A stretch of 64,000 nucleotides of DNA from Geodermatophilus aquaeductus (GTDB lineage: Bacteria; Actinomycetota; Actinomycetes; Mycobacteriales; Geodermatophilaceae), in NCBI RefSeq assembly GCF_900182545.1, contig NZ_FXTJ01000006.1:124001-188000 (forward strand), in the 5' to 3' direction. The notes below the pieces were generated by a model. That model searched no databases and was not told the origin of the DNA. It worked only from the letters and a program-made list of their open reading frames with translations. Of this stretch, positions 5,931 to 27,641 are shown piece by piece. The translations under genes and the position numbers were made by a program. Numbering within the stretch: the first letter of the stretch is position 1; each line of letters begins with the position of its first letter.

Positions 5931-6274
5931 ACCACTCCGGAGTTCGCCGTCTCACTCACACTGACGCTGTAGAGGTCGGGCAGGACATCGATCAGACGCT
6001 CCCAGAGCCACTGAGCGAGCAACTCACTCGTCGGGTTGTCGAGCCCGGGGACATCGTTGAGCACCTTGTGGTCGAGTTCCGCCTCGAGGGGACGGAACGC
6101 CTCCTTGATGTCCCCGAAGTCGCGGACCCAGCCCGCGACAGGGTCCACCTCTCCGCGGAGACGGATCTCGACCGTGTAGGTGTGCCCGTGCATGTTGCCG
6201 CACTTGTGGCCGGCCGGGACCTTAGGAAGGTAGTGCGCGGCATCGAAGGAGAACGTGCGCCACAACTCGGTCAT
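5906..6274 (-). CDS. queD: 6-carboxy-5,6,7,8-tetrahydropterin synthase
   Basis: About 122 residues, the normal QueD size. It converts dihydroneopterin triphosphate to carboxytetrahydropterin, the second step to preQ0. The family metal site is present: His14 (FDAAH) with His29 and His31 (NMHGHTY), and the catalytic Cys is Cys25 (GHKCGN). LDHKVLND and the terminal VSETANSGVVY match the second active-site motifs. ATG 6274 forms an ATGA overlap with the queE stop, so translation is coupled; the open frame further upstream (MVPEPANSQ...) lies inside queE. It is third in queC-queE-queD. No GTP cyclohydrolase I gene is in the window, so dihydroneopterin triphosphate must come from the cell's folate enzyme. 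Confidence 0.93.
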   Translation of the reverse strand: MTELWRTFSFDAAHYLPKVPAGHKCGNMHGHTYTVEIRLRGEVDPVAGWVRDFGDIKEAFRPLEAELDHKVLNDVPGLDNPTSELLAQWLWERLIDVLPDLYSVSVSETANSGVVYRGAPSV

Positions 6275-6903
6275 GGGATCCTCAGGTACTTGTGAGTTTG
6301 CAGGCTCAGGGACCACTGGGGGTTGCTCAGGCAGTAGGCGACCGCTTGGGCTGTGTTCTCCTCGACGCGCTGGTCATCGAGCGGCTGCAGACGGAACGAG
6401 CGGAAGTCGAGCAACTCGAAGGTCTCGGGTAGCGCCTCGGGTTGAGGGAAGACCAGTTTTAGTTCGTCCCCGCTCGTGACAACCAACTCAGCGCCTGCCT
6501 TGGGGCTGACACAGATCCAGTCGAGCCCCCGAGGAGGGCGCTGCGTTCCGTTGGTCTCCACAGCGATCTCGAAGCCGCGGTCGTGCAGTGCGTCGACGGC
6601 AGTCTCGTCGAGCTGCAGCAGCGGTTCGCCACCGGTGCAGACGACGAAGGGGCGTCCGCCACCGGGCCACCGTCGGGCGACTGCCTCCGCCAGTGCGTCC
6701 GCGCCGACGTACTTACCTCCGCCTTCGCCATCGACTCCGACGAAGTCGGTATCGCAGAACTGACACACGGCCCGGTGCCTGTCCCGTTCCAAGCCGGTCC
6801 ACAGGTTGCAACGGGAGAAGCGGCAGAAGACGGCGGGACGTCCAGCGTGCGCGCCCTCTCCCTGCAGCGTGTAGAAGATCTCCTTGATGAAGTACGTCTT
6901 CAT
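6271..6903 (-). CDS. queE: 7-carboxy-7-deazaguanine synthase (radical SAM)
   Basis: About 210 residues. QueE rearranges carboxytetrahydropterin to 7-carboxy-7-deazaguanine with SAM and a [4Fe-4S] cluster. The family's unusual CX14CX2C cluster motif is present: Cys of SRCNLW, then 14 residues, then CQFC. The opening [20 protein letters not shown] and the GGEPLLQ stretch are typical. ATG 6903 shares an ATGA overlap with the queC stop; sequence read upstream of it is inside queC in another frame. It is the middle gene of queC-queE-queD. Radical SAM enzymes also belong to other pathways, but the cluster spacing and the neighbours leave little doubt. Confidence 0.94.
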
Positions 6904-7592
6904 CGGGGCCAGTAGGGCGTGGGATCCACCAGGCCGGCTTCGGCGAAGCCGCGCAGGCGCAGGGTGCAGGAGTCGCACTCACCGCAGGACCCGCGCTCGT
7001 CGGCTCGGTAGCAGCTGACCGTCATGGAGTAGTCGACACCCAGCCGAGTGCCCTCCCGGACGATGTCCGCCTTGGTCATGGTCATCAGGGGTGCGTGCAC
7101 GGAGATGTGCTGGCGCCCCTCGACCGCAGCAGCAGTGGCCAGGTTGGCCAGGCGCTCGAAAGCCTCGATGAACTCGGGCCGGCAGTCCGGGTAGCCGCTG
7201 TAGTCGAGGGCGTTGACCCCGATGAAGATGTGCTCGGCGCCCAGCACCTCGGCGTAACCCAGGGCGCAGGCGAGGAACACCGTGTTGCGGGCGGGAACGT
7301 ACGTCGACGGGATGCCCTCGCCGATGTCGTCGTGCGTCCGGCCGACCGGGACCTCCATCGCGTCGTCGGTCAAGGAGCTTCCACCGAACTCGCTCAGCCC
7401 GACGTGGAGCACCTCGTGCCGCTTCACGCCCATCGCTGCAGCGACAGCGGAGGCCGATCGCAACTCCACCTCGTGCTTCTGCCCATAGTCGAAGCTCAAC
7501 GCGCATGGCTCGAAGCCTCGATCCCTGGCGATCGCCAGGACCGTCGTCGAGTCGAGTCCTCCGCTGAGCAGGACCACCGCCGGCTTGCTCAT
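6900..7592 (-). CDS. queC: 7-cyano-7-deazaguanine synthase
   Basis: About 230 residues. QueC uses ATP and ammonia to turn 7-carboxy-7-deazaguanine into preQ0, the base DpdA needs. The PP-loop [11 protein letters not shown] (residues 10-20) and [12 protein letters not shown] are clear, and the zinc site is [16 protein letters not shown] near the C-terminus. ATG 7592 is chosen because GGAGG sits at ideal spacing upstream; a GTG two codons earlier is too close to it. It heads the leftward queC-queE-queD operon and is divergent from dpdC, with 116 bases between the start codons. The modification base and the enzymes using it are therefore likely controlled from one intergenic region. Confidence 0.95.
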
Positions 7593-7696
7593 GCCCACCT
7601 CCTTGGTCGCAGCGACCCTAGGTGGACAGCATGCAGCCCACTGCAGTTGACACGCCAGAAGGGGTGCTGGATGCGCTCCACAACTGCAGCTGGGCT

Positions 7697-7708: not shown

Positions 7709-8626
7709 GTGCGGCAACTGTGCGAGACGCGAGCCAAGGGACGCCTCGCGATCATCGTCTCCTGTACGGCCACGAAGCGAGTGGCTGCCGCGGATGACGC
7801 CATGATCCGCCACCTGGACGGCGGTCCGGACAGGGTGCACCAGTGGGTCGAGCGACTGGACGGTCAGCCAGAGACCCACCGCGTCCCCCTGCGAAGCCTG
7901 TACGGCGGCCCGATGTGGCAGTCCGCACTCGACCTCGAGTCGCGGGCTCGACATCTCGGCTACGCAGTCGATCTGTGGGTCGCGTCAGCCGGCCTGGGCC
8001 TGGCTCCGGTGGACAGCAGCGCTCCGGCCTATGAGGCCAGCTTCTCGGCCGGCCCGGATCAGGTCGCGGAGGATCGCCATGGTCGTCGTTCCTGGTGGCT
8101 CGGTCTACGGACGAGGACCTTCCTCGGTCGCACTGCGGCCGACCTGCGTCTCGTGCGCGAGGAAGCAGACCAGGTCCTGCTCGCCCTGTCGCCCAGTTAC
8201 CTCCAGCCGCTCGGTGAGGAACTCCACTCCATCGCCGACGACGAGGGCGTGGCAGTCGTCTCGAGCCATCGGCCGACGCGGCAGTCCCCCGTCTCCAGTT
8301 ACGGACTCCGGCAGAGGCTGGGCGGGACGCAGGTCACCTTGAACGCCCGTGCCGCTGCCAAGTACCTCGAGTTGGCGGGTGGGACCCCCATCGGGAGTTC
8401 GACCGCGCACCAGCGCTGGGAGGAGTGGGCGGCCGGCAACCGACTGTCGGAGGCGGCACCTCGTCCGCCGTTGACCGACGACGAGGTGCGCACCTTCATC
8501 CGCGAGGGCCTGCAGGTCCGCCCGACGGCTCGGACCCCCTTGTTGGTCGAACTGCGCCGGTCGGGATCGGCGTGCGAGCAGGCTCGCTTCGCACGGCTGT
8601 ATCGAGAAGTCCAGGAGGAACAGTGA
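7709..8626 (+). CDS. dpdC: DpdC, YaaA/DUF6884-like protein of the 7-deazaguanine DNA system
   Basis: About 305 residues. The N-terminus has a YaaA-like pattern: an opening strand [11 protein letters not shown], then [15 protein letters not shown], then [14 protein letters not shown], the equivalent of the (S)AKHGL motif in DUF6884 proteins. In the studied Salmonella Dpd system, DpdC is the third component needed for modification and converts preQ0 in DNA to the amido form (dADG); I infer the same here. The C-terminal half (from about residue 190) is less conserved. It starts at GTG 7709, apparently leaderless, and its stop overlaps the dpdB1 start as GTGA. It is the first gene of the long rightward dpd run. 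The family match comes from motif memory and context, not a search. Confidence 0.75.
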
Positions 8627-9762
8627 CGGTCCCGGAAAACGTCCTCCAGCGACGCGCACTCTCCGTGCTGCAGCCGTCGGGGACGCCCGTCTTCCTCTTC
8701 ACCGTCACGGCGGCGGAATTGCTCGAGGTCGCGGACATCAGTCGCATCTCACGCGACGAAGAAGGCCAGCTCATCGGCTACCAGCGCCCCGAGGTCCGCC
8801 GGCACGTCAACCAGATCGTCGAGTACCTCGACGGGGACTCCGTGCTCTTCCCCCACGCAGTCATCGTCGCGTTGCCGTCGACGGTCAAGTTCCGCCAGAG
8901 CCGGGGCCCCGGGACACATGACGGACTGGCCGCGGCGGGGACTCTCGAGATCCCGCTGCCCAAGCCCGGCGAGCCCCGGCCCGGCTGGCTCGTGGACGGC
9001 CAGCAGCGCGCGCTTGCGCTGGCACGGACGAAGCGACAGGACCTCCCCGTTCCGGTCACCGCCTTCATCGCCGACGACATCGAGGTCCAGCGGGATCAGT
9101 TCCTCCGCGTGAACAACGTGCAGCCACTCCCCCGCGGACTCGTGACTGAACTGCTGCCCGAGGTCTGGACCTCCCTCTCGCCCAAGATGAGCGCGAAGCG
9201 CATACCCAGCGCCCTGGTCGATCTACTGAACAGGCAGCCGGCCTCCCCGTTCCACGGGCTGATCAAGCGGGCCTCGACGCCGGACACCGAGAAGACCCAG
9301 GCCGTCGTCACCGACACCGTCCTGGTCAGCGCGATCGAGGAGAGCCTGAACTCCTCCGCCGGCGCCCTGTACCCGTACCGCAACATGGCGACGGCCGAGA
9401 CCGACATCGACGGGATCTACCGCCTGCTCCTGTGCTATTGGCGGGCGGTCCGCGCGACCTTCCCCGACGCCTGGGGCCTTCCCCCCACGCAGTCCAGGCT
9501 CATGCACGGCACCGGCCTGCGGGCCATGGCGCGACTGATGGACCGGGTCATGCTGACCATCGACCCCACCCACAAGGACGCCGAGGATGCGGTCCGCCGG
9601 GAGCTCAAGAAGGTCGCTCCGTACTGTCGGTGGACCGCGGGAGAGTGGGACGACCTCGGCGTCGCCTGGGACGCCCTCCAGAACATCCAGAGAGACATCC
9701 GCATGCTGAGCAACTACCTCGTCCGCCTGTACATCCAGGAGTCCCAGAAGGCACGGGCGTGA
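8623..9762 (+). CDS. dpdB: DpdB-type DGQQR protein, copy 1
   Basis: About 379 residues. The hallmark is LVDGQQRALALAR at about residues 124-136, the DGQQR motif shared by DndB, DpdB and related ParB/Srx-fold proteins. Other family features are GYQRPEVRRHVNQIVEYL, VNNVQPLPRGL and a late SRLMHGTGLRAMARLMD segment. DpdB is an ATPase that works with DpdA to exchange guanine for preQ0 in DNA. GTG 8623 has a strong AGGAGG ahead of it and overlaps the dpdC stop (GTGA). The stop overlaps the dpdA start in the same way. A second, diverged copy lies just after dpdA. DndB of the phosphorothioate system is the main alternative, but no dndC/D/E genes are present. Confidence 0.85.
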   Translation: MTVPENVLQRRALSVLQPSGTPVFLFTVTAAELLEVADISRISRDEEGQLIGYQRPEVRRHVNQIVEYLDGDSVLFPHAVIVALPSTVKFRQSRGPGTHDGLAAAGTLEIPLPKPGEPRPGWLVDGQQRALALARTKRQDLPVPVTAFIADDIEVQRDQFLRVNNVQPLPRGLVTELLPEVWTSLSPKMSAKRIPSALVDLLNRQPASPFHGLIKRASTPDTEKTQAVVTDTVLVSAIEESLNSSAGALYPYRNMATAETDIDGIYRLLLCYWRAVRATFPDAWGLPPTQSRLMHGTGLRAMARLMDRVMLTIDPTHKDAEDAVRRELKKVAPYCRWTAGEWDDLGVAWDALQNIQRDIRMLSNYLVRLYIQESQKARA

Positions 9763-10991
9763 GGTTCTTCTTTCCTGACAGCCAGGACCAGATCAGTCCG
9801 TCCTTCGACTTTCGCACGGAGGAGTACTCGCCGTTCCGGGTCCGGCAACGGGACGACCGCTATGCGCACGAGGTGCTCGACCCTCTGCCGTACGACGGCC
9901 TCCTCGTCAGCAAGGCGATCGTCGATGGCAGCACACGAGGGGCCGGCAAGTACTCCGAAGCCCAACGCTCGCGCCTGTATCGATATGGCGCCCGCAAGTT
10001 CTTCCGCCTGCCGGATGCCGTGAGCCTGCTCGGCGACTGCGGTTCATTCAACTACGTCAACGAGACGGTCCCGCCGTACAGCGTGTCGCAGGTCGCCGAC
10101 TACTACGAGTCAGTGGGTTTCGACGCGGGAGTGTCCGTGGACCACGTCGTCCTCGCCTACGACCGCAAGGTCGGCCTGGACAACGCCCCGGAGGAGTGGG
10201 TGCGCAGACGCGACATCTCCTTGGACTACGCCGAGCGCTTTCTCGGGGAGTGCATCGATCGCGGCACCCCATTCGAGCCCCTCGGCGCCGCGCAGGGCTG
10301 GGATCCCACCAGCTATGCAGACAGCGTCAAGCAGTTACAGGACATGGGCTACAAGCGGATCGCTCTCGGCGGGATGGTGCCTCTCAAGACGCCGGACATC
10401 CTGTCGTCGCTGGCTGCAGTCAATGAGATCCGCATGCCAGACGTTGAGTTGCACCTCCTGGGGATCAGCCGACTGGACGCGATGACACGCTTCGCCGAGT
10501 ACGGAGTCACCAGCTTCGACAGCACTGCGCCATTCCGGCAGGCCTTCATGGACGACCGCGACAACTACCAGGTCCCGGGCGGTGATCACTACGTCGCGAT
10601 CCGCGTACCTCAGGTCGACGCCAACCCGACGGTCAAGCGACGCGTCCTGGCCGGCGAGTTGGACCAGCGCACACTCGTACGGGCGGAGCGCCAGTGCCTC
10701 AAGGTGCTTCGCGCCGTCGGCGAGGACCCCCAGCACACCGACGAGGCCCTCGCAGCGCTGGACGAGTACGAACGCCTGCTCGGCGTGAAGCGCAGCTACC
10801 TCCAGGAGTACCGACGCACTCTCGCCGAACGCCCCTGGGAGAAGTGCCCGTGCAGTCTCTGCCGCGAGCACGGCATACAGATCGCCATCTTCCGCGGAAC
10901 AGAACGCAACAAAAGTCGCGGGTTCCACAACCTGGCCGTCCTCTGCTCACAGGTGCACGAGTTGCCACAGAAGACGAAGGAGGCCGTGTGA
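9759..10991 (+). CDS. dpdA: DpdA, TGT-like DNA guanine transglycosylase
   Basis: About 410 residues. DpdA exchanges guanine in DNA for preQ0. It resembles tRNA-guanine transglycosylase: LLGDCGSFNYV (residues 90-99) aligns with the TGT DSGGFQ active-site loop, GVSVDHVVLAYD carries a conserved Asp, YKRIALGGMVPL matches the TGT glycine loop, and FDSTAPFRQAF follows. The C-terminal zinc site is visible as KCPCSLC with a later His in RGFHNL, the TGT-type CXCX2C...H arrangement. The very early SKAIVDGST segment is typical of DpdA rather than of bacterial Tgt. The start at GTG 9759 overlaps the dpdB1 stop (GTGA), and its stop overlaps the dpdB2 start (TGATG). It is the central gene for calling this a Dpd system. 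Confidence 0.92.
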   Translation: MRFFFPDSQDQISPSFDFRTEEYSPFRVRQRDDRYAHEVLDPLPYDGLLVSKAIVDGSTRGAGKYSEAQRSRLYRYGARKFFRLPDAVSLLGDCGSFNYVNETVPPYSVSQVADYYESVGFDAGVSVDHVVLAYDRKVGLDNAPEEWVRRRDISLDYAERFLGECIDRGTPFEPLGAAQGWDPTSYADSVKQLQDMGYKRIALGGMVPLKTPDILSSLAAVNEIRMPDVELHLLGISRLDAMTRFAEYGVTSFDSTAPFRQAFMDDRDNYQVPGGDHYVAIRVPQVDANPTVKRRVLAGELDQRTLVRAERQCLKVLRAVGEDPQHTDEALAALDEYERLLGVKRSYLQEYRRTLAERPWEKCPCSLCREHGIQIAIFRGTERNKSRGFHNLAVLCSQVHELPQKTKEAV

Positions 10992-12079
10992 TGGCCGATC
11001 GTTACGACCTCCGACTCCCCTGCATCAGGCTGATGCAGGGGGAACGCGCCCTGTACTCGTTCGCCGTCGACGGCAAGCGACTCGGAGACTTCGCCGCGGT
11101 GGCTCGCGTCGGACGCGACGAGGACGCGGGACTTCAGGGCTACCAACGCCCCGAGGTCCTCAAGCACATCCGGGGCATCCAGAGGTACCTGGAGAAGCCC
11201 GGCGCCCTGCTGCCGAACGCGATCGTCGTCGCATTCGACGACAGCGTGCGCTTCGAGGCGATCGACGCGGACTCCTCCGATGTCACCTACGCGGCTATGG
11301 GGACCCTCGTCATCCCGGTGGACGAATCGCAGGACGACGGACACAAGCCCGGCTGGATCGTCGACGGTCAACAGCGGACCGCTGCGATCCGGGAGTCGGA
11401 ACTTGACGAGTTCCCGGTGTGCGTCGTCTCCTTCGTCGCCAACGAGGAAGAACAGCGCGCGCAGTTCATCCTGGTCAACAACACCCGCCCACTGCCCAAG
11501 GGGTTGATCCACGAACTCCTGCCGGCAACACAGGATGAACTGCCCCTGCCCTTGATGCGTCGTCGACTGGCCGCCGAGGTCGTCTACCGACTCAACGTGG
11601 ACCCGGATTCACCGTTCCACGAGATGATCGCCACGCCGACGCAGCCCAAGGGGATCATCAAGGACAACGCTGTCCTGCGGATGGTGGAGAACAGCGTCTA
11701 CAACGGCGCTCTCTACGCCTATCGCTATGCGGACACCGGCGAAGGCAATGTCGGGGCGATGGTCAGTCACCTCAAGACCTTCTGGAAGACTGTGGAGGTC
11801 ACGTTCCCCGACGCGTGGAGGCTGCCACCCCGCAGTTCGAGGCTCACTCATGGGGCCGGCATCGCCGCTCTCGGCTACGTCATGGACCACCTCACCGACG
11901 GGGTCCCACTGGCTGAGGTGGGCCAGGCGAGCAGCAAGATCGGCAAGTTGACCGATGTCGCCTGGACGACCGGCGAGTGGCAGTTCGCGACGGGTCCTCG
12001 CCGATGGAATCAGATCCAGAACACGCCCAACGACATCCGCTTGTTGACCGACCACCTCAGGGCGCAACTCTCAGCCTGA
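10991..12079 (+). CDS. dpdB: DpdB-type DGQQR protein, copy 2
   Basis: About 362 residues, a paralogue of the copy before dpdA. Shared landmarks appear in the same order: GYQRPEVLKHIRGIQRYL, then IVDGQQRTAAIRES, VNNTRPLPKGLIHELLP, an SPFHEMI segment and SRLTHGAGIAALGYVMDHL. The sequences between the landmarks differ widely, so this is not a recent duplication. The start ATG 10991 overlaps the dpdA stop. After its stop comes a 161-base gap, the first real gap in the run, before dpdE, so dpdC-B1-A-B2 may be a modification unit with its own promoter. The two DpdB proteins could form a heteromer or serve different sequence contexts. That is inference. Confidence 0.83.
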   Translation: MADRYDLRLPCIRLMQGERALYSFAVDGKRLGDFAAVARVGRDEDAGLQGYQRPEVLKHIRGIQRYLEKPGALLPNAIVVAFDDSVRFEAIDADSSDVTYAAMGTLVIPVDESQDDGHKPGWIVDGQQRTAAIRESELDEFPVCVVSFVANEEEQRAQFILVNNTRPLPKGLIHELLPATQDELPLPLMRRRLAAEVVYRLNVDPDSPFHEMIATPTQPKGIIKDNAVLRMVENSVYNGALYAYRYADTGEGNVGAMVSHLKTFWKTVEVTFPDAWRLPPRSSRLTHGAGIAALGYVMDHLTDGVPLAEVGQASSKIGKLTDVAWTTGEWQFATGPRRWNQIQNTPNDIRLLTDHLRAQLSA

Positions 12080-12240
12080 CCCAGAGTCGGATCACCCGTC
12101 ACGGATGCCCCGGAGGTCGACCACCGCGACGGATGAGACAGCAGTGACTCGGCGGAGCGAGTTCTGACCGGGCAGGTACCCCTCAGAGGATCGGGCCGGT
12201 TACGTTCTGGAAGTACCAGTTGCGGAACGTGGAGGCGACG

Positions 12241-15200
12241 ATGCCTACGGGGCTACGCGTCGATGTCGGCATGCTCGTCGTACATCCAGCCATCCCCGGA
12301 GTCGCCCGTGTGTCGGCGACTCGGGGCTCTGAAGTTCAACTTGAGTTATTCGACTCCGCGGCCCGGCCGGTAGCCGCTCAGCAGTGGGTCGATCGGGCAG
12401 ACATCCGCCGCTGTCAGGTCGGCGTCCAGACCCGGGTCTTCTGGCAGGACTCGACCTCCGGACGATGGACTGCAGGCCGCGTCGTCGGTGGCGGCCCGGA
12501 GGAGTACTTCGTCCGGCGCCCAAATGCCGATCTGGACCTCCGGATCCCGGAGAGCGAGATCCGGGTCAGGTGGAATCGTCCACTCGAGGACCCACTCGCG
12601 GTGCTCCTCTCAGGAGGCCAGGAGTCGCCCTACTTCCGAGACAGCCGACTGCCGGCCCTCGAGGAGTTGACGGCGCAGCGTGCTGCGTGTGCGTCGGTCC
12701 CGGCCCTCCCGTCATCACGGGTCCAGATCCACGGTCACCAGATCAGCGCGGCCCTGAAGGTGCTGTCGGACCCGGTGCAGCGGTACCTCCTGGCAGACGA
12801 GGTCGGACTCGGCAAGACGATCGAAGCCGGCTTTGTCATCCGTCAACGGTTCCTCGAGGATCCGAGGGCGAAAGTGGTCGTCGTCGCGCCGGAGCCACTG
12901 CGCCGTCAGTGGCTGGAGGAACTGCTTGAGCGGTTCTTCGTGGACGACTTCCCTCACGCGGAGTTGGTGGTCAGTTCACACGACTCGCCCGAGAAGTGGT
13001 CGCAGTACCACGACTTCGATCTAGCGGTGGTGGACGAGGCGCATCTGTTGGCCGGCATGGGGGAGCCGACGGCCAGTCCTTATGTCGAATTGCGCCGACT
13101 GTGTCACGCGGTACCTCGACTACTCCTGCTGTCCGCGACGCCGGTCCTGCAGAAGGAGACGACCCACCTCGGGCTTCTCCACCTGCTCGATCCGCAGGTC
13201 TACTCCTGGGAGCACTTCGACTCGTTCCGCCAGCGGTTGTCCGTCCGTCGCGAACTCGCGACGGCGGTCTACTCGCTCGATCCCCTCTTCAGCTATCTGC
13301 TGGCCGACGCGATCGACCAGGTGCGGAACCTGCTGCCCGAGGATTCACGGTTCGACACCCTCGCCGAGGACGTGGTCGCGCGACTCGATGACGACGGGGA
13401 CCTCCGGCCGGACGCGACCGCCGATGACCTGGCGACTGCCGTAGCGGCCCTCCGTGGCCACGTGGCCGAGACGTATCGGCTCCACCGGCGGGTGTTGCGC
13501 AACCGTCGGGTGTCGGTCCTGAACGCCCGGTTGGACGATGCAGGAGTCATGGCGCCCTTCGAGGTGACGGGGCGTCGCAGTCCTCAACTCGTCGTCCTCC
13601 GCGCCCATGAGCACCAACGTGGCCGGGAAGTCCTGGAGGACTGGCAGGTCAGGACGCGGGACCACCTCCTCGACACGGCAGGCGATCTCGCGCCCTACGC
13701 AGAGGTCCTCAGCGTGCTCACGTCAAGGGTCGGGGGCCCCCTCGACGACCTCCGGGACGCGATGTCGTTCCGGGTGCGCCACGACCAGGCTGCCGGCAAG
13801 CGCGCCGACCTCAGTGCTCAGGAGAGGCGATTCCTGCGGGAGGCGCCACGGCTGCCGTTCGAAGCCGACATCCTGCGCGACCTCGACGCCAGGCGGCCCT
13901 CCGACGGTATGACGGAACTGGTCGAGCGGCTGCGACCCGCCCTGGCCGCACGTCGGGCGGTCGTCTTCGCCGGCCGGGGACAGCTCGCTTCCTCCCTCCA
14001 CTCAACCCTCATGCAGCAGGGGGCGACCCGGGTGAGGGAACACACCCGCCAGGCCGGCGCCGCTGCTGCGGAAGATGCAGTCAGAGAGTGGCGTGAGCAG
14101 GGTGGCCTGCTGATCTGCGACGCGAGCGCTGAGGACGGCCGCAACCTGCAACTCGCGGACCTCGTTCTCCACCTCCGCCTACCGGGCAACCCCAACGAGC
14201 TCGAGCAACGGATAGGTCGCGTGGACCGCTACGGATCCACCCGATCCGCTCAGCAGGTCGTCTTCGGCGATGCGTCCGACACCGGCCTGACCGCCGCCTG
14301 GCGTGAGGTGCTCCTCAACGGCCACCAGGTCTTCACCCGGTCCATCTCGGCGCTCCAGGACGCTGTGGATCGTGAGCTGCAGGGCCTGTGGCTGGCCGCC
14401 CTGGAAGACGGAGCCACCGGACTCGCAGCCACGGCTCCCGCCGTCGCGAAATCGCTCGAGGACGAGACGAAGGTCCTCGCACAGTTGGACGTCCTGGAGA
14501 CGAGCTACGAATCCGCCAGTCCCGCCCGCGACATCGCGCACGGCCTGGCGGAGTGGGAACTCAGTCGAGCAGACGATTCCCCGCTCCTGCGCCTCCTCGA
14601 AGGGGACGAGGGCTTCCGTTTCCAGCTACGTCGCCGCCAGCGTGGGGAGGTCACCATCTCGAGCGGATCCCGTCCGCCGCTCCTCGGTCCCCAACTGCTG
14701 GCCGAGCTGCGAACCGTGCCGGAGAAGAGTCGAACCGGCTGGACGGATCGCTGGGACGCCCTGAGGAACGGGGGTCGCCTCTTCAGGATCGGGAACCCGC
14801 TGATCGATGCTGTTGGCCGAATCCTGCAATTGGACGACCGGGGTCGTGCCTCCGCGCACTGGCGCGTGGACCCGTCGTGGAGGTTGGAGCCGCTCCCCTA
14901 CTTCGCGTTCGACTACCTCGTGGAGGTCGATCTAACGCCGGCGATCGAGGTGGCTCGACGCGAGGGCGCCGGAGACCTGCTCGCGCTTCGCCGGCGAGCC
15001 GACCGCTTCTTCGAGCCATTCCACCGGCGTCTCTGGATCCCCAGCAACGAGGCCGTGGCCGTGGACGACGAGAAGTTGCTCGCCTGGCTCGACGCCCCAT
15101 ACCGGAACAACGCCAGCGACGTGAACCTGAACGCACAACGCATCGCCAGCCTCCATCGGCTCTTCGGCGGGGTCGACGGATTCGAGGAGGCTGCCCATGA

Positions 15201-15474
15201 CGCGGAGTCGAGCGCCCGGACAGAGCTCGCGCGCATGACCGATCTCCCTGCTCGCAGGGGCTTCGCCCAGGCTGCGGTGAGGGAGGAACTGGCCGTCCTG
15301 TCCGCCCAGGCGGAGGCCCGCCGAGCCGCGGCAGCCATCCTGACGGACGACCACAGTGCGGCGTTCGATCGGGCCCTCACCCAAGCTCTGCTGCAGGGCA
15401 TCGGCGCCCCCAAGGTGAGCCTTGTTGCCGTGACCTGCCTGGTGCGGAGCGGACAGCGGTGGCCGGGAGCATGA
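12241..15474 (+). CDS. dpdE: DpdE, SNF2/RapA-like helicase
   Basis: About 1077 residues. ATG 12241 is chosen for its GGAGG site; an in-frame TTG at 12220 is weaker. After a small N-terminal beta domain (about 1-110), the SF2 helicase core starts with LLADEVGLGKTIEAG (Walker A, near residue 185), then VVDEAHLLAG (motif II, about 265), LLLSATPV, and ELEQRIGRVDRYGS (motif VI, near 655). The C-terminal 400 residues are helical, with a clearly RapA-like layout. DpdE belongs to the restriction arm of Dpd, presumably moving on unmodified DNA. A TACGTT box about 40 bases upstream could be a promoter for the restriction genes. Its stop lies inside the dpdF start region. Confidence 0.85.
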   Translation: MPTGLRVDVGMLVVHPAIPGVARVSATRGSEVQLELFDSAARPVAAQQWVDRADIRRCQVGVQTRVFWQDSTSGRWTAGRVVGGGPEEYFVRRPNADLDLRIPESEIRVRWNRPLEDPLAVLLSGGQESPYFRDSRLPALEELTAQRAACASVPALPSSRVQIHGHQISAALKVLSDPVQRYLLADEVGLGKTIEAGFVIRQRFLEDPRAKVVVVAPEPLRRQWLEELLERFFVDDFPHAELVVSSHDSPEKWSQYHDFDLAVVDEAHLLAGMGEPTASPYVELRRLCHAVPRLLLLSATPVLQKETTHLGLLHLLDPQVYSWEHFDSFRQRLSVRRELATAVYSLDPLFSYLLADAIDQVRNLLPEDSRFDTLAEDVVARLDDDGDLRPDATADDLATAVAALRGHVAETYRLHRRVLRNRRVSVLNARLDDAGVMAPFEVTGRRSPQLVVLRAHEHQRGREVLEDWQVRTRDHLLDTAGDLAPYAEVLSVLTSRVGGPLDDLRDAMSFRVRHDQAAGKRADLSAQERRFLREAPRLPFEADILRDLDARRPSDGMTELVERLRPALAARRAVVFAGRGQLASSLHSTLMQQGATRVREHTRQAGAAAAEDAVREWREQGGLLICDASAEDGRNLQLADLVLHLRLPGNPNELEQRIGRVDRYGSTRSAQQVVFGDASDTGLTAAWREVLLNGHQVFTRSISALQDAVDRELQGLWLAALEDGATGLAATAPAVAKSLEDETKVLAQLDVLETSYESASPARDIAHGLAEWELSRADDSPLLRLLEGDEGFRFQLRRRQRGEVTISSGSRPPLLGPQLLAELRTVPEKSRTGWTDRWDALRNGGRLFRIGNPLIDAVGRILQLDDRGRASAHWRVDPSWRLEPLPYFAFDYLVEVDLTPAIEVARREGAGDLLALRRRADRFFEPFHRRLWIPSNEAVAVDDEKLLAWLDAPYRNNASDVNLNAQRIASLHRLFGGVDGFEEAAHDAESSARTELARMTDLPARRGFAQAAVREELAVLSAQAEARRAAAAILTDDHSAAFDRALTQALLQGIGAPKVSLVAVTCLVRSGQRWPGA

Positions 15475-18065
15475 CGCGCAGCGACGTCCAACTGCTGCAA
15501 CACGCCATCGACCGGTTCCCTGAGGCAACTCACCGGGCGCTCGTGGGCTCTGATGCGGCCAGGCGTGCCCTCGATGCCATGTCGGACATCGGTGGGCCCC
15601 ACGCCGGGCGGTCGGACCTCGCCGCGCTTCTGCGACAGGTCCTCCTCGAGGACGAGGCGCGTTACGGGGGCCGGCCGTCCCTCACCGTCCCGGGAAGCGC
15701 CCCGTGGCCGGACGAGGACACGTGGACGAGCGTCGGATGCTCCGTGAGCATCGCGCAGAACCGCTTCACCGTCCGCGCGGAAGCCTGGCTCCCCGAACTG
15801 GGTCCCAGCGACCGCCCGGACCTCGCCGCGGAACAGTTGCGCGAGGTCTATCGAGGCCAGCAGTCGCCGTACGCGCGGAAGTTGGACGCGGTCGACGCGG
15901 ATCCCTTCTGGCGGCACGCACTCGGCTACGAGCACTACTTCAGCGTGGCTCAGCGCCAAGCCGCCCGGGCAGTCGCACTGAGTCCCGCCGGCTCGACGAT
16001 CGTGGTAAGCCTTCCCACGGGGCGCGGCAAGACCGCTGTCGTATGGGCACCTGCCCTCCTGCGCGACAGTGGAGTCACCGTGGTCGTCGTGCCGACCGTG
16101 GTGCTGGCCCTCGACATGGAGCGCCGAACTCGGGAGATCGCCGCCAGCACGCAGCAGGTCCTCAGTCCCGTCGACCGTTACGCGTACGTCGGGAGCCTCT
16201 CCGACGACACCAAGCAGGCCCTGCGTCAGGCGGTCCGCTCCGGCCAGCAACGCATCCTGTACACCTCGCCCGAGGCACTTGTCACCGGGCTCAGCGAGTC
16301 CTTGCTCGAATGCGCCCGTTCTGGATTCCTCCGGCAGTTCGTCGTCGACGAGGCTCACCTGATCGACCAGTGGGGACAGGACTTCCGGCCCGAGTTCCTC
16401 ACGATGGCCGGACTCCGGGACCAGACCGTCGAACTCTCGCCTCCGGACAACCGGCCGATCACAGTGCTCATGAGCGCGACCATCACCAATCGGCACCTCG
16501 AACTCTTCCGCCAGACCTTCCACTCACCCACGGGCACCTATCTGGTCTGGGGTTCGTCGCTGAGGTCAGAGCCGGCCTACTTCTCCCACCGTTACACGTC
16601 ACTGGAGGAACGCACGGCGGCCGCCGTGGAGGTCGCCCTGCGTCTGCCCCGACCGTTGGTCGTGTACGCGGCCAAGGTGAAGGACGCCAAGGACTTCGCG
16701 CAGAGGCTGCGGGACGCCGGCCTGCGGCGGGTCGCCGCGATCACCGGAGACTCCTCGGAAGAGGACCGCCGGACCGTCGTCCAACGGTGGAGGGGCAGCA
16801 GCACGGAAGGGTCGACCGTCCCGACCGAGATCGACGTCGTGGTGGGGACATCCGCATTCGGACTGGGCGTGGACGTCAGCAACGTGCGCAGCGTCCTGCA
16901 CGTGTGTGTTCCCGAGACGATCGACCGCTTCTACCAGGAAGTCGGTCGCGCCGGCCGAGACGGTCTGCCCACCGTCTCGGTCCTTCTCACCGCGCCCTCG
17001 GATGACGACGTGGCGCGCAGTCTGAACAGCGTCGTTCACATCGGGGTGGACAAGGGTTGGAGTCGCTGGAACGCCCTGCGTGCCCGCGCGCAGCGGCAAC
17101 CAGACGGCCTCTATCGTGTCGACATCACGTCTCTGCCGCACCACCTGACGGAGGGCTACGGCCGCAGCGCCCAGTGGAACGTCCGCACGCTGACCTTGAT
17201 GGCACAGGCAGGGCTGATCAAGCTACTGGCACCTCGGGAACCTGCTCGTCTGCCGGACGAGGACCTCGAGTCGTGGCAGGCCAGACGACGCACCTTCCAT
17301 GACGAGGTGAGGAACTTCGTCGACATCGAACTCATCGATGGTTCCGCACTGGACGAAGAAGGCTGGGCGCGCCGCGTCACGCAGGTCCGTGACGTCGTGG
17401 CGAACGCTCAACGGTCAGCGCTGGAAGCCATGTACCAGGTCGCCTCGGCCAGACATTGCATGGGAAACATCCTCGCGCTCCACTACCGCGCGCACGACGG
17501 CGGCGCCACCCTGCGCACGCTCCCCTTCTGCCGAGGCTGCCCCGCCTGTCGTGTCGCGAAGTTCGCCGATCCGGAGGATCGGCGTGTTCCGCGGCCACTG
17601 GAACCGGTGCCGCCCGTGCCGGACTACTTCCACGCCGAGAACGGTTTGTGGGATCCACTTCTGGTTCTGCGACCAGATCAACCGCTCTTGTTCCTCTGGG
17701 TCGAGGACGACCGAGAGTACGCGGACCTGGCTCCCGAACTGCTAGCAAGGCTCGCATCACGCGGGATTCCCGTCGCCTTCGGGGCACCCACCCACGTCCT
17801 CACCGAAGCACAGCGTCGTTCACCGCACTCTGTCCTGATCGCCGACGACGGAGATCTGCTCGAGGCGCACCAGCAGCCGGTGGTGGCCTTCGTCCCGCCG
17901 ACGGTCTCTCACGTACCCGATGCGGTACTCGCACGCCTCAAGTCCCGCATGCCCACCTACGTGGTGGGATCCGCCTCGCTGACCACACCAGGGCGGGACC
18001 AGTGGATGTGGCGGGACGGAGCTGACGCGTCCATGAACATCCGTACGGCATTGGAGAGCCTCTAG
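15459..18065 (+). CDS. dpdF: DpdF, RecQ-like helicase
   Basis: About 868 residues. The core has SLPTGRGKTAVVW (Walker A, near 183-195), VVDEAHLIDQWGQDFRPEF (the RecQ-type DEAH motif, near 295), LMSATITN and RFYQEVGRAGRDG (motif VI, near 490). The P-loop reads GRGKT instead of the usual RecQ GxGKS, but the essential Lys-Thr is kept. A Cys cluster, CRGCPAC near residue 690, sits where RecQ has its zinc domain. GTG 15459 has GGAG nine bases upstream and is preferred; ATG 15471 forms an ATGA with the dpdE stop and is possible. The stop overlaps the dpdG start (TAGTG). It is a restriction-arm component by its place in the dpd run. Confidence 0.85.
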   Translation: MAGSMTRSDVQLLQHAIDRFPEATHRALVGSDAARRALDAMSDIGGPHAGRSDLAALLRQVLLEDEARYGGRPSLTVPGSAPWPDEDTWTSVGCSVSIAQNRFTVRAEAWLPELGPSDRPDLAAEQLREVYRGQQSPYARKLDAVDADPFWRHALGYEHYFSVAQRQAARAVALSPAGSTIVVSLPTGRGKTAVVWAPALLRDSGVTVVVVPTVVLALDMERRTREIAASTQQVLSPVDRYAYVGSLSDDTKQALRQAVRSGQQRILYTSPEALVTGLSESLLECARSGFLRQFVVDEAHLIDQWGQDFRPEFLTMAGLRDQTVELSPPDNRPITVLMSATITNRHLELFRQTFHSPTGTYLVWGSSLRSEPAYFSHRYTSLEERTAAAVEVALRLPRPLVVYAAKVKDAKDFAQRLRDAGLRRVAAITGDSSEEDRRTVVQRWRGSSTEGSTVPTEIDVVVGTSAFGLGVDVSNVRSVLHVCVPETIDRFYQEVGRAGRDGLPTVSVLLTAPSDDDVARSLNSVVHIGVDKGWSRWNALRARAQRQPDGLYRVDITSLPHHLTEGYGRSAQWNVRTLTLMAQAGLIKLLAPREPARLPDEDLESWQARRRTFHDEVRNFVDIELIDGSALDEEGWARRVTQVRDVVANAQRSALEAMYQVASARHCMGNILALHYRAHDGGATLRTLPFCRGCPACRVAKFADPEDRRVPRPLEPVPPVPDYFHAENGLWDPLLVLRPDQPLLFLWVEDDREYADLAPELLARLASRGIPVAFGAPTHVLTEAQRRSPHSVLIADDGDLLEAHQQPVVAFVPPTVSHVPDAVLARLKSRMPTYVVGSASLTTPGRDQWMWRDGADASMNIRTALESL

Positions 18066-18979
18066 TGGCCTTGCTGAACCTCAGCCCGACCTACGCCCTT
18101 CCGACGACCATGTGGGCATTAACTCGGGCGATCACGGCCAACGGTCGGTGCACCGAGGAAGAATTGCTCAGGCAAGTCAGCCCCGTGTCCCTCCAACGAG
18201 CGGCCAAAGACCAGGTGCCGACCGACGAGTCGGCTGCAACCACCCCACATTGCCTGGTAGCCCTGCGCGCCCTGCGCGACTTAGGCATGGTCAGGGACGC
18301 CGAGGGTCGCCTCGCGTGGATTGGCGCCACGCCTAATCGGTATTCAGAGTTCAGCCAACAGTTGCGCAACGCCATCTTCGCCTCCGAGAACTTTACCGAC
18401 GTGGCAGACAGAAGGAACGCCAAAGGTTCCAGAGACTTACTACGCGGACTTACTTGGTTCCTCACCAAGGATCCCACGGGACGCCCCTGGACATGGCGCG
18501 AGGTCTTTCAGGATCCCAACGCCGGAACCGACGACAACACACGCGTCTTCGTGAACGAGATCCGATGGAACGGTTTCCGCTACTGGGTCGAGGCCCTGGG
18601 CCTGGGAGAGTCGGAGGCAGTCTTCAGCGACCGCCCCGGTGCTCTCACCCCCGCCCCTACTCGAGCCGTGAGAGACACAATCCTGGGAATCTACAGGAAG
18701 GGCAACGAGGTCCCGGTGAATCAACTTTTGGACGATCTGCGCGAGCGGTTGCCCGTACTGCCGGGCGGCGCTATAGCTCAAGCGCTTAACTGGTCAACCT
18801 CGGATGACTTTCTTGACCCGGCCACCTCTTATGCACTTGAGGCAGGAGCGCTCAGGGGTTGGCTCCGATTGGAGACGCGAGCCGATGCCGATAGGTCCGT
18901 CCTGCTGGCAGACCTGAGTCGGACGGGAAGGCATCGGTCAGTCACGCACGTGATCGTTAAGGACCTGATCGATGTCTGA
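18065..18979 (+). CDS. dpdG: DpdG protein
   Basis: About 304 residues, starting at GTG 18065. The opening LNLSPTYALPTTMWALTRA and the next helices (TEEELLRQVSP, LVALRALRDLGMV) look like a winged-helix arrangement. I see no catalytic motif. The name rests on position between the DpdF-like helicase and the DpdH-like ATPase and on overall size, as in other dpd loci. Base composition changes here: the gene uses visibly more A/T-ending codons than dpdE and dpdF, and this continues into dpdH. It overlaps dpdH by eight bases. It may bridge the helicase and the ATPase, but its role is not established. Confidence 0.7.
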   Translation: MALLNLSPTYALPTTMWALTRAITANGRCTEEELLRQVSPVSLQRAAKDQVPTDESAATTPHCLVALRALRDLGMVRDAEGRLAWIGATPNRYSEFSQQLRNAIFASENFTDVADRRNAKGSRDLLRGLTWFLTKDPTGRPWTWREVFQDPNAGTDDNTRVFVNEIRWNGFRYWVEALGLGESEAVFSDRPGALTPAPTRAVRDTILGIYRKGNEVPVNQLLDDLRERLPVLPGGAIAQALNWSTSDDFLDPATSYALEAGALRGWLRLETRADADRSVLLADLSRTGRHRSVTHVIVKDLIDV

Positions 18980-21900
18980 CTTCGCCGGTTTCGTTTGTTG
19001 GGACAAGAGCACCGTCACAGCGACCATCGCAACCGAGGCGGTCAGTCCAAGTAGAAGCGTCTTCCTGGCCACTCATGCGCCACTGGACATCCACCGGACG
19101 CCCGTGACTGGGGGACGCTCGGGCGTCCCTCGGGTGGTGAGCGAACAGGATGTACTGCGCGACTTCCTAACCCGACCGACGAACAACGGCGTCCTCATCA
19201 TGCCAGTGCTCGGCGATTCGGGCGCCGGTAAGTCTCACTTGGTTCGCTGGGTTGCCGCGCGGACGGGATCAACCAGCGATCGGCAGGTAATCTACCTACC
19301 GAAGGACAACACCAGTCTGGCCGGCGTAATCAACCTCCTCCTGGCCGACAACCATGGTTCACCCTTCGATGAAATTCGGGCGGACATGGCCCGAATCGGT
19401 CGGGAGATTTCGCAGACGGCACTCGAGCGCAGCCTGTTGGATCAGTTGGCTGCAGCTCTACTCGAGGCAACTCCCGGTCCGCCGCAGGAGCGGGCCCTGC
19501 TTGGAAAACAGGGACTGTACGTCCTTCTCCACGACCCGTTCTTCCGGGAGAAGCTGCTTCGTCCGGGATCCCTGATCCCCAGAAGGGCGGCTCATGCGAT
19601 AAATGGCCGCGACACCGAGGACGGAGATGTCCCACTGCAATTTACGGTCGAGGACCTCCCCCTTGACTTGACCGACATCGACGAGGCGGCACTGGTGTCG
19701 CGACGCCTGTATGGACGCCTAGCCTCCGACCCTCAGTTGCAGGTCGTTGCTGCGGACCTACTGCAGAAGCATCTGGACGTCGCAGTGATGCAGGCCACGA
19801 GTCTAGGGGTAGGACGTGTTTACGACGCCTTCCTTGAAATTCGTCGTGCACTGGCCGGCAAGAAGGAGATTGTGCTTCTGGTCGAGGACTTCGCCCTCGT
19901 GCAAGGCGTGCAAAGGGATTTGCTTGACGCCATCACTGAGACAGGGGAACGAGCGGGAACACAAGTACTCGCTCCTGTCCGCACATTGATGGCCGTAACG
20001 ACCGGCTACTTCGGCGCCTTGCCGGACACCGTGCGGACCCGAGTCGACTCCTGCAGTCCATACCGCTACGAACTGCGCGTGACCCTGAGCGACGATGGCG
20101 CTAGGAACACTCGTGCCGAAAGTCGAGTCGTCGACATGATCGGCAGGTACCTGAACGCGGCCCGCATCGGACGAGAACGCCTCGACATGCTGGGCGTGGA
20201 GGACGAGGCCAGCACCCCAAACGCATGCGCGACGTGTCTAGTTCAGGAACCTTGCCACTCAGGGTTTGGCACCTCGTCGGCAGGCCACGGCCTCTACCCT
20301 TACAATGAGTCTGCATTGCTGCGCGCGGTGCGCGCCTCCGCCTCACCGGAAAGGCCCGACGTCTTCAACCCTCGGGGCGCCCTCGCCCGTGTGGTCCGCA
20401 CTGTTCTTCAGGATCACGAGGACGATGTAAGGTCTGGCCGTTTCCCGAACGAGCACTTCGCAAGCAAGTTCCCGCCATCCCGCATGGAGACCGTCCTGCC
20501 TGACGCCGTTCGAGCGCGGATTAATGAACTCGATCCTGGCGCCGGCGGCCGGCGCCAGGCCCTCCTTCAATATTGGGGCGACGGCCCGTCAGAACTCATC
20601 AATCTGGCCCCTCAGATTCACGACGCTTTCCGTATTCCCCAGTTGCCGACTGACGTCATCGATGCGCCCACGGCGCTGCCGTCACGGACCCAAGAGCCCG
20701 AACCGGCAGGAAAGCTGTCGGACCGCGAACTACTGCCCGCATCGGTCCAACGTCGTTTGGACCAGATTGAGCACTGGTCCTTGAGAGGGGAGAGTTTCCC
20801 TGAGGACTTAGCTCGCGAGATCAGACAGATAATTCGGACGGCGGTGCTGTCACGCGCGTCCTGGACTGATCCGGTCATGAAAGAACCGTCCACGGCGATC
20901 CTCGACAAGGCCTGGCCGCGCAGCGCTCGAACGGTGTCCATCGAGGGGGCAGCCGAGGCGATCGCCAGGAACGTGCAGCCGCCGATCCGGTTCGACAGGA
21001 CGCCGGAGAATGCCGTGTTCTTCGCCGATCTGGTCAGGCTCAGGGCCGGCATCGTCGAGGGCACACTGCAAACGCGGCTGCGACTGGACCGCCTGGCCGA
21101 GCTGCACGCGCCCACCGCCCGCCGAGCCGTGGTCTCGGTGCTGCAGAGCGGCGACGCAGAACTCGTCTCAGCGCTTCGGGTCTCGATCGTGGGGGCATCG
21201 CTCGCCGGCGTCGTCGTGCCCGGAGCAAGCGACCAAGCCTTGCTCAATGCAGCATTGGTGGACCTGACCGGCTTCGTACGCACTGACGACGCGACGCGAT
21301 CCCCCCTGTGGAAGCGAGCCTTGGAGCGCCATCTGTCGGTGCGCAGCGCTCTGGTGCGTGCCCTGCGCGAGGCCACTGGCGTGTCGCAGGGTGTCTCGGG
21401 GGAGGTGCACGCCGTGGACGCCCGTCGACTCCTTCCTCTGGTTCGAGAGGCGTCAACGAAGTGGCGGGTATCCACCGACGACGAGATGCCGGAGTGGGCG
21501 AGGCCGGGCTACACGCCCCTGTTGACAGTCGACGACGCGGTCACGGAGGAACTGAGGAGACTGACCGAACTCGTGGCGGCCATTCGACTCCGACTGCCCA
21601 TCGGCACCAGCCTCTCCCAAACCTTCAAAGCCGTGAGCGCGGCCATCGACGCTGGGGAAAGGCATGGGTTCGTCAGGCACACGGACCTGCGCCTTCTCCG
21701 CGCCCGCAACGGGGCTGCGGAGGATCTCTCCACTCGAGCCCTCGAGGTTCTCGAGTCCGACCTCTCTTCACTGGATACCTCGTCGTCGTTCGAGACGCGC
21801 CTGAGGGTGGCTGCTGCGGATCGCGGCAATTCCTTGACGCGACTCCTGGACTATCTGGAAGAGAACGAGGCATGGCTGGACGCCGGCTTGGCGATGCCGA

Positions 21901-22001
21901 CCGGTGACGAGTCGTCGGAGGCGTCCGAACTCCTGCGCCGACTCGGCGCCGTCGTGAGCGATTGGAGCCTTCTGGTGTCAGCACGGGAGAGTGGCTCGTG
22001 A
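18972..22001 (+). CDS. dpdH: DpdH, large P-loop ATPase
   Basis: About 1009 residues from ATG 18972. The Walker A motif is PVLGDSGAGKSHLVRWVAA near residue 80, and IVLLVEDFALVQG near 300 is a probable Walker B strand (acidic pair in LVEDF). CATCLVQEPCHSGFG near 420 is a likely zinc-binding insertion. The C-terminal 400 residues are helical, with no motif I recognise. The protein resembles STAND/AAA-type defence ATPases. In dpd loci this gene lies in the restriction arm. The first two thirds share the lower-GC codon use of dpdG; from about base 20,860 composition returns to that of the neighbours, suggesting a mosaic gene. The stop overlaps the dpdI start (GTGA). Confidence 0.78.
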   Translation: MSDFAGFVCWDKSTVTATIATEAVSPSRSVFLATHAPLDIHRTPVTGGRSGVPRVVSEQDVLRDFLTRPTNNGVLIMPVLGDSGAGKSHLVRWVAARTGSTSDRQVIYLPKDNTSLAGVINLLLADNHGSPFDEIRADMARIGREISQTALERSLLDQLAAALLEATPGPPQERALLGKQGLYVLLHDPFFREKLLRPGSLIPRRAAHAINGRDTEDGDVPLQFTVEDLPLDLTDIDEAALVSRRLYGRLASDPQLQVVAADLLQKHLDVAVMQATSLGVGRVYDAFLEIRRALAGKKEIVLLVEDFALVQGVQRDLLDAITETGERAGTQVLAPVRTLMAVTTGYFGALPDTVRTRVDSCSPYRYELRVTLSDDGARNTRAESRVVDMIGRYLNAARIGRERLDMLGVEDEASTPNACATCLVQEPCHSGFGTSSAGHGLYPYNESALLRAVRASASPERPDVFNPRGALARVVRTVLQDHEDDVRSGRFPNEHFASKFPPSRMETVLPDAVRARINELDPGAGGRRQALLQYWGDGPSELINLAPQIHDAFRIPQLPTDVIDAPTALPSRTQEPEPAGKLSDRELLPASVQRRLDQIEHWSLRGESFPEDLAREIRQIIRTAVLSRASWTDPVMKEPSTAILDKAWPRSARTVSIEGAAEAIARNVQPPIRFDRTPENAVFFADLVRLRAGIVEGTLQTRLRLDRLAELHAPTARRAVVSVLQSGDAELVSALRVSIVGASLAGVVVPGASDQALLNAALVDLTGFVRTDDATRSPLWKRALERHLSVRSALVRALREATGVSQGVSGEVHAVDARRLLPLVREASTKWRVSTDDEMPEWARPGYTPLLTVDDAVTEELRRLTELVAAIRLRLPIGTSLSQTFKAVSAAIDAGERHGFVRHTDLRLLRARNGAAEDLSTRALEVLESDLSSLDTSSSFETRLRVAAADRGNSLTRLLDYLEENEAWLDAGLAMPTGDESSEASELLRRLGAVVSDWSLLVSARESGS

Positions 22002-27129: not shown

Positions 27130-27641
27130 CCATGTGGCGCCGGATGATCCGGAGCAACCCGCGGGCCGGGGTGAGGATCAACGACGTGCTGAGCGCGGCA
27201 CTGGTGTCCGAATTGCTCGACCCGAGCCCGCACCTCTGGCTCGTGTCTCCCTGGGTCAGCGACATCGTCGTGTTGGACAACCGGGACGAGCGCCTGCTCG
27301 GCGTCCTCGACGAGACGCACGCACGGGAGACACGCCTGTCCGAGGTCCTGGCCAGGCTCGTCACGGCCGGCTCCGCGCTCCACGTAGCTGTCCGCCCCGA
27401 CGAGCACAACCACCAGTTCGTCAACGGCCTCCATCGCCTGGTGGGTGGTGGGTCGTTCGACCTGTACGAGGGCCCTGACCTCCACGAGAAGACCCTCTGC
27501 GGTCACGACTGGCTGATCACCGGATCGATGAACTTCACCTGGCGGGGTCTCGAGATGAACGACGAGGCGGTCACCTACGCCGTGGATCCGGCGGCCGCGG
27601 CTCAGGCGCGACTCGACCTGGAGCACCGGTGGTCCGCATGA
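27126..27641 (+). CDS. dpdK: DpdK, phospholipase D-like protein
   Basis: About 171 residues from GTG 27126, with GGAGG upstream and a GTGA overlap with dpdJ. One PLD-type HKD motif is visible: LHEKTLCGHDWLITGSMNFT, i.e. H-x-K-x4-D followed by the GSxN strand. A single motif implies that a dimer forms the active site, as in Nuc-type nucleases. LWLVSPWVSDIVV near residue 38 is the usual first strand of the fold. In Dpd it belongs to the restriction arm and may be the DNA-cutting component (inference from the fold). The end overlaps dpdD by 13 bases. Confidence 0.82.
   Translation: MTMWRRMIRSNPRAGVRINDVLSAALVSELLDPSPHLWLVSPWVSDIVVLDNRDERLLGVLDETHARETRLSEVLARLVTAGSALHVAVRPDEHNHQFVNGLHRLVGGGSFDLYEGPDLHEKTLCGHDWLITGSMNFTWRGLEMNDEAVTYAVDPAAAAQARLDLEHRWSA

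Follow-up and report, generated by a model that had tools for sequence, protein, structure and literature searches.

Dpd defense systems replace guanines in the DNA of their own host by an altered base. The Dpd systems (dpdA-K) of Salmonella Montevideo and Escherichia coli share with the locus described here dpdC, the product of which turns dPreQ0 into dADG in the described systems, dpdA, a dpdB gene of the B2 type (see below), for the product of which ATPase activity is known, and the restriction genes; in E. coli GE3, the gene order is dpdC-dpdA-dpdB-dpdE-dpdF. We analyzed a stretch of 64,000 nucleotides from the actinobacterium Geodermatophilus aquaeductus (contig NZ_FXTJ01000006.1, positions 124,001 to 188,000), hereinafter the window, which encodes a Dpd DNA-modification defense system with the layout that is usual for its phylum. 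Whereas the E. coli and Enterobacter loci that we read possess one DpdB, the window encodes two, DpdB1 and DpdB2, on the two sides of DpdA. Sequence comparison indicates that these are two ancient families which stem from one old duplication and each keep their own side of dpdA. In actinobacterial operons, the histories of the four synthesis genes split into two modules, dpdC-dpdB1 and dpdA-dpdB2, with the border between dpdB1 and dpdA.

The synthesis operon, in the order dpdC-dpdB1-dpdA-dpdB2, occupies positions 7709-12079 of the window, with all genes on the plus strand:

7709..8626, plus strand, dpdC (DUF6884-type; PADLOC DpdC, E 1.2e-73)
8623..8626, plus strand, GTGA overlap of dpdC and dpdB1, 4 bases
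8623..9762, plus strand, dpdB1, upstream DpdB family, B1 (U) side of the tree (NF041060, 416.5 bits, cut-off 300)
9759..9762, plus strand, GTGA overlap of the dpdB1 stop and the dpdA start, 4 bases, read from the sequence
9759..10991, plus strand, dpdA, DNA-guanine transglycosylase (NF041059, 584.3 bits, cut-off 200)
10989..10993, plus strand, TGATG overlap of dpdA and dpdB2, 1 base shared between the genes
10991..12079, plus strand, dpdB2, downstream DpdB family, B2 (D) side of the tree (NF041060, 472.8 bits, cut-off 300)

The scores of these gene families are far above the chance level. The identity of DpdA is further attested by the match of a profile of DpdAs to the solved DNA-guanine transglycosylase 7ui4 (E 8.4e-181), and the DpdC protein has no Pfam or NCBIfam match. 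An initial annotation, made from the sequence alone, had delimited the correct stretch but left its first gene, dpdC, unnamed. Its observation that two DGQQR proteins flank dpdA with GTGA and TGATG overlaps holds at 8623-12079, as do the tight coupling of the genes and the description of the two as diverged DpdB paralogs, with both above the family cut-off and 36% identity over 348 residues.

The same annotation took one DpdB for the rule and the twin arrangement for a rarity, which turned out to be the wrong way round: in actinobacteria, a dpdA flanked by twin dpdB genes is the norm and no anomaly, an outcome that the annotation itself had listed as counting against it. When species genomes were scanned with a DpdA alignment, 499 loci were confirmed, and among the best 80 of these, all actinobacterial by title, a full DpdB lies directly on each side of dpdA in 77, a count that is silent on other phyla and comes from mutually non-independent loci; Kineococcus radiotolerans, for which DNA modification was measured, is not among these 80. 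The three exceptions have the downstream copy only (L113), a downstream fragment of 121 residues (L068) or no DpdB (L103). A 2025 preprint (PMC11888242; n=801) likewise reports more additional copies for dpdB than for any other dpd gene. Altogether, we collected 104 loci with DpdA above 200 bits from species genomes, plasmids, viral contigs, phage, E. coli, one further genome and the window; 89 of these are twins, three have the downstream copy only (L027, L126, L113), 12 have none or a fragment, and none has the upstream copy only. Among the 12, L122 has only ~0.4 kb of DNA past dpdA; L035 has an annotated DGQHR-domain gene nearby that is unmatched by the DpdB profile. Seven of the twins are plasmid loci of alphaproteobacteria, two are IMG/VR contigs and one is a metagenomic 'phage' scaffold, and the islands of Actinomycetota and Alphaproteobacteria share the order dpdC-dpdB1-dpdA-dpdB2, so that the window is an ordinary member. 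The record MT835580 (L124), labeled 'Bacteriophage sp.' and coming from faecal samples, carries the whole block; the record is unverified and may be a bacterial island. In a draw of 394 genomes of the window's class that was not anchored on DpdA and may overlap the 80 loci, DpdB exceeds the cut-off in four genomes, namely the source genome, two more twins with the same gene order and one with an orphan B2-type gene. DpdA exceeds its cut-off in two of 396 genomes of the phylum, again possibly overlapping the 80 loci: the source genome and one other (G031), likewise a twin.

The main tree, a maximum likelihood tree of 63 DpdBs without a far outgroup, separates 28 upstream copies from 35 downstream, single and orphan copies with support 100/100 and in 200 of 200 bootstrap trees, with the caution that two long branches meet in it. 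Given that actinobacteria and alphaproteobacteria are found on both sides of this split, the duplication predates the spread of the operon between phyla. In a quick tree with far DGQHR relatives as the outgroup (79 rows), all B1 sequences fall on one side of a branch with support 91. In a more careful outgroup tree, one outgroup sequence with a very long branch (L127, 9.7 changes per column) was placed within B1, so that B1 needs two changes, and the outgroup rows were therefore removed from the final tree. Rooting with far relatives thus failed, and the tree gives no order of age for B1 and B2. The single DpdBs of the E. coli GE3 and Enterobacter POL9 loci are of the B2 type in the tree; by extension, the DpdB of the published Salmonella work would be of the B2 type as well, with B1 unstudied. 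The proposal that the duplication is old and has been kept is thereby borne out, and neither copy falls outside the DpdB family, an alternative rejected given that both exceed the cut-off and lie within the B1/B2 tree. Two further alternatives were rejected: a decaying copy, given that 89 of the 89 upstream copies are open across the domain with DGQQR intact, and a recent lineage-specific duplication, given the 36% identity and a split common to alphaproteobacteria. Mean column identity is 67% within B1 (32 sequences) and 64% within B2 (36 sequences). Within the literature searched, the two position-fixed DpdB families and the evolution of the operon in two modules seem to be new: no description of either was found in an open-access search, outside of which lay the founding Dpd papers and the supplement tables of PMC11888242.

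The DGQQR motif occupies residues 125-129 in both DpdB1 and DpdB2 and is intact throughout the alignment of B1, B2 and orphan DpdBs (185 of 185); Q52, R53, H59 and N163 (B2 numbering here and below) are likewise invariant in B1 and B2. The two families differ at other positions: a third motif, with basic residues at both 166 and 170, is present in 91 of 92 B2 vs 19 of 89 B1 sequences, D348 in 91 of 92 vs 4 of 89, and R337 in 88 of 92 vs 3 of 89. The idea that B1 is a dead ATPase was not retained because the loss of the basic third motif is a tendency, with 19 of 89 B1 sequences keeping both residues. In the predicted models (mean predicted local distance difference test score, pLDDT, 87.8 for B2 and 86.5 for B1), the N-terminal half of both proteins resembles the CTPases ParB, Noc and KorB, and sulfiredoxin (best Z 7.9 for B2 and 5.9 for B1). 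ParB-like proteins, Noc, KorB and sulfiredoxin account for 19 of the first 20 chains aligned to B2, a result that at Z <8 is suggestive; the best match is 7bnr_A (Z 7.9, 94 aligned residues, 2.6 A). A search with Foldseek alone yielded nothing at E 0.001, no good match was found for the C-terminal half of the DpdB model, and sequence searches of solved structures gave no clear relative (best E 0.046 and 0.21). The corresponding motifs of ParB bind nucleotide; by analogy, the conserved DpdB motifs could be nucleotide-binding, and both copies may bind nucleotide while differing in the third motif.

The evidence for two modules comes from 79 actinobacterial operons (all but one of the 77 twin loci of species genomes, together with the window, L004 and one IMG/VR contig). 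Correlations (r) between the distance matrices are 0.91 for DpdC-DpdB1, 0.93 for DpdA-DpdB2 and 0.77 for the adjacent pair DpdB1-DpdA; given the other two genes, the partial r is 0.77, 0.80 and 0.11, respectively, with all non-module pairs at or below 0.15. For the two DpdBs, r is 0.74 and partial r is -0.03. A discordant group of 10 loci (S) displays the border directly: its DpdC and DpdB1 are nearer to clade X and its DpdA and DpdB2 nearer to clade Y in every 40-residue window, and the sign of the identity difference flips exactly between B1 and A. Approximately unbiased (AU) tests on subsets under LG+G4 rejected S+Y for DpdC (p 0.004) and DpdB1 (2e-5), and S+X for DpdA (6e-6) and DpdB2 (2e-10). 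Conflicting splits were counted between trees of half-genes at support thresholds of 0.8, 0.9 and 0.95. At 0.9, 24 of 67 splits conflict across B1|A; at the other places tested the count is 2 to 16 of 62 to 76 and is highest inside dpdC. At 0.95, the counts are 15/48 across B1|A, 0/38 across C|B1, 0/49 across A|B2, 0/53 inside A, 0/43 inside B2, 0 inside B1 and 4/43 inside dpdC. Without the discordant group they fall to 11/41 across B1|A and 2/37 inside dpdC, and without this group, clade X and two more loci, to 7/29 across B1|A and 0 everywhere else. Because the conflict at B1|A persists after removal of discordant groups, more than one exchange near the dpdB1/dpdA overlap has occurred in actinobacteria, with B1, together with DpdC, swapped between operons of one dpdA/dpdB2 type.

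In 88 of the 89 twin loci, the gene immediately before dpdB1, in the same orientation, is dpdC (the remaining locus begins at the contig end), and in 83 of the 89 dpdB1 ends in (A/G/T)TGA, which allows an overlapping dpdA start codon. No B1 without B2 was found, including in searches of plasmids, phages and viral contigs started from B1; the order of dispensability seen is no DpdB, B2 only, B1 with B2, and never B1 alone. E. coli dpdA-dpdB2 DNA was found once each in 159 of 5,426 genomes, a search blind to diverged B1; in the GE3 locus, one of these 159, there is no B1. Nine orphan DpdBs without DpdA in the stretch read are all of the B2 type:

L025:15001-16107, L026:14992-16137 and L029:14995-16092, orphan B2-type DpdB, plasmids
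L125:5743-7149, orphan B2-type DpdB, phage Mx4
L134, L135, L136 and L138, orphan B2-type DpdB, viral contigs
L142, orphan B2-type DpdB, chromosome of genome G712

For orphans on short contigs, DpdA could lie beyond the stretch; on L025, L026 and L029, no DpdA match was obtained at E 1e-5 across the whole plasmid record. B2-type DpdBs may be used outside Dpd, or interfere with it. Near the orphans, L026 encodes a DNA cytosine methyltransferase, L029 a DUF6884 gene and L134 a DpdC-like ORF (open reading frame). Several loci from cyanobacteria, Paenibacillus and viral contigs (L033:1065-3149, L030:11137-13227, L035:9110-11263, L119 and L120) contain DpdA ORFs of ~690-760 codons with a weak N-terminal match to DpdC, which are possible DpdC-DpdA fusions; the DpdB profile has no match in these five loci, and L030 and L033 carry an additional second short TGT-like gene. 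Furthermore, 38 plasmid records, mostly from Enterobacterales, contain DUF6884 or 'tgtA5 cluster protein 2' genes partly similar to DpdC, whereas a single plasmid from Enterobacterales turned up in the search for DpdA.

The explanation that we tentatively favor, although taken as a whole it stays somewhat short of an even chance, is that DpdB2 serves DpdA and DpdB1 works on the DpdC side, probably within one complex. DpdB2 is read as the partner of DpdA because the two co-evolve and because B2 is the type of the single-copy systems that we read, and DpdB1 is read as the partner of DpdC because these two co-evolve. DpdB2 would be the core partner, an ATPase that would load DpdA on DNA or drive the base exchange that places preQ0. 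DpdB1 would be an added partner, found here only alongside DpdC, DpdA and DpdB2, which most likely helps DpdC to reach or hold the new dPreQ0 base for conversion to dADG and is perhaps docked on the DpdA-DpdB2 complex via B1-B2 pairing. We infer this division of labor, the complex and the ATPase roles of the two copies. To the three meanings considered in the initial annotation (a heteromeric ATPase, two sequence specificities and a DndB-like regulator), the gene histories suggest adding a fourth, namely that each DpdB copy belongs with a different enzyme.

Several observations weigh against this explanation. The strongest objection is that dpdC and dpdB1, as well as dpdA and dpdB2, are physical neighbors, such that linkage combined with a recombination-prone border could mimic pairing; in reply, C|B1 and A|B2 are free of conflict at 0.95 even though all four genes adjoin and B1|A has been crossed repeatedly. 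The contrast is weaker at support 0.8, where the conflicting fraction is 0.43 across B1|A vs 0.10 to 0.31 elsewhere, and 0.44 vs up to 0.42 in the smallest set. The groups compared in the AU tests were named after the trees had been seen. The actinobacterial module pattern is unrepeated in nine alphaproteobacterial, phage and viral loci, with conflicts, at support 0.8, in 5/9 splits across C|B1, 5/9 inside B1, 2/9 across B1|A and 0/9 across A|B2; A and B2 stay together in both sets. DpdC does not need B1 everywhere, given that dpdC systems without a full B1 exist and that Salmonella reportedly has a single DpdB: dpdC is present without a full B1 in L027, L126, L113 and L068, and two plasmids of Acetobacter and Methylorubrum (L034, L032) combine a dpdC-like gene and dpdA with no DpdB found. 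In Salmonella, DpdA and one DpdB reportedly produce dPreQ0, which DpdC converts to dADG, and the single DpdB is said to suffice.

The main rival is a heteromeric DpdB, with B1 and B2 forming one mixed ring or dimer for DpdA alone, B1 being degenerate or regulatory and DpdC independent. The similar predicted folds, the intact DGQQR in both copies, the absence of the basic third-motif residues, D348 and R337 from most B1 and the lack of any B1 found without B2 are all compatible with such a heteromer, but the discordant histories of B1 and B2, with partners changing across B1|A, are unexpected for obligate subunits and B1 is about as conserved as B2, so we regard it as unlikely, if a serious contender. 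The module border could also reflect the mechanics of recombination alone, if homologous exchange at the conserved 5' end of dpdA swaps in a new promoter-proximal half and no functional pairing is involved. No window of DpdA is more conserved than residues 1-40 (65-77% identity between groups), the NTGA end of dpdB1 can be overlapped by the dpdA start in the 83 loci mentioned above, neighbors share history by default and alphaproteobacterial loci show another pattern. Residues 121-160 of B2, however, are as conserved (up to 78%), and yet at 0.95 there is no conflict inside A, inside B2 or across A|B2, which makes mechanics alone a rather unlikely account. Very improbable, in our view, is a division by sequence specificity, in which B1 and B2 guide DpdA to different sites and B1 is the exchangeable specificity subunit: the exchange of B1 with DpdC between operons of one dpdA/dpdB2 type speaks for it, whereas B1 travels with DpdC rather than alone (the partial r of 0.77) and the coarse 40-residue windows reveal no single hypervariable segment resembling a target-recognition domain.

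It also appears improbable that one of the copies, with B1 the likelier candidate, controls transcription of the operon in the manner of DndB. DndB of phosphorothioation systems is a distant relative of both DpdBs, which share with it the DGQ(H/Q)R motif and match its family PF14072 above the cut-off, and one report (PMC4507180) describes DndB, with its DGQHR motif, as the repressor of dndCDE in Salmonella, acting at known palindromes. The repressor role is established for DndB. The DpdBs of the window stay below the cut-off of the DndB equivalog TIGR03233 (328 bits), with 23.8 bits for B2 and B1 not listed. The DndB operator TACGN10CGTA, the consensus used here although a DpdB operator could differ, is not enriched in the window, with 11 occurrences at no more than one mismatch against an expectation of 9.4 (38 of 100 shuffles gave 11 or more). 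Its only perfect occurrence falls within dpdA, and the stretch from queC to dpdC has none even when one mismatch is allowed. The regulator proposed in the initial annotation therefore gained little, although two repeats are located upstream of dpdC: a perfect inverted repeat, the 9-base arms of which (7641-7649 and 7681-7689) are 31 bases apart, and, at 7622-7641, an imperfect palindrome of 20 bases. These repeats at 7622-7689 are a possible operator.

The remainder of the Dpd locus and the genes for preQ0 supply are as follows:

5295-5930, ORF with a match below the cut-off to a preQ0 transporter family
6271..6978, minus strand, queE, preQ0 synthesis (TIGR04508, 338.6 bits, cut-off 240; the match begins at residue 29, and the ORF as listed probably begins before the true start)
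6900..7598, minus strand, queC, preQ0 synthesis (TIGR00364, 216.4 bits, cut-off 150.3)
12220..15474, plus strand, dpdE, restriction side (NF041062, 1112.8 bits, cut-off 500)
15459..18065, plus strand, dpdF (NF041063, 784.5 bits, cut-off 550)
18065..18979, plus strand, dpdG (NF041064, 116.9 bits, cut-off 80)
18972..22001, plus strand, dpdH (NF041065, 1006.1 bits, cut-off 450)
21962..22666, plus strand, ORF in the dpdI place (no family match, 0 families)
22663..27129, plus strand, dpdJ (NF041067, 1691 bits, cut-off 800)
27629..29605, plus strand, dpdD (NF041061, 517.3 bits, cut-off 300)

The restriction genes dpdD, E, F, G, H and J thus all exceed their cut-offs. Two differences from the Salmonella and E. 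coli systems are that the ORF at 21962..22666, the position of which we take to be that of dpdI from the gene order, is unmatched and that no dpdK was found among the 18 window ORFs scanned. The preQ0 supply genes queC and queE lie upstream of the operon on the opposite strand, whereas in alphaproteobacterial twin loci queE directly follows dpdB2 (5 of 5 annotated). The Dpd system is embedded in a larger defense region, the same window encoding a DISARM-type DrmD helicase (39222-42482; 1219 bits, cut-off 610) and, at 33054-36422, a further SNF2 helicase that stays below the cut-off; an ORF of 889 residues on the minus strand (1696-4365) has a SIR2-like part matching ThsA-type defense models.

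If DpdB does comprise two ancient families, and if E. coli-type systems have B2 alone, half of what DpdB does in actinobacteria and alphaproteobacteria may have escaped attention. The two-module pattern translates into a testable split, namely which modified base is lost upon removal of each copy. More guardedly still than the pairing itself, we suggest that twin systems could be two-stage machines with one dedicated ATPase per step, in which actinobacteria swap dpdC-dpdB1 independently of dpdA-dpdB2. If this is the case, a swap of dpdC-dpdB1 could alter the final base or its sites and leave the insertion enzyme untouched.

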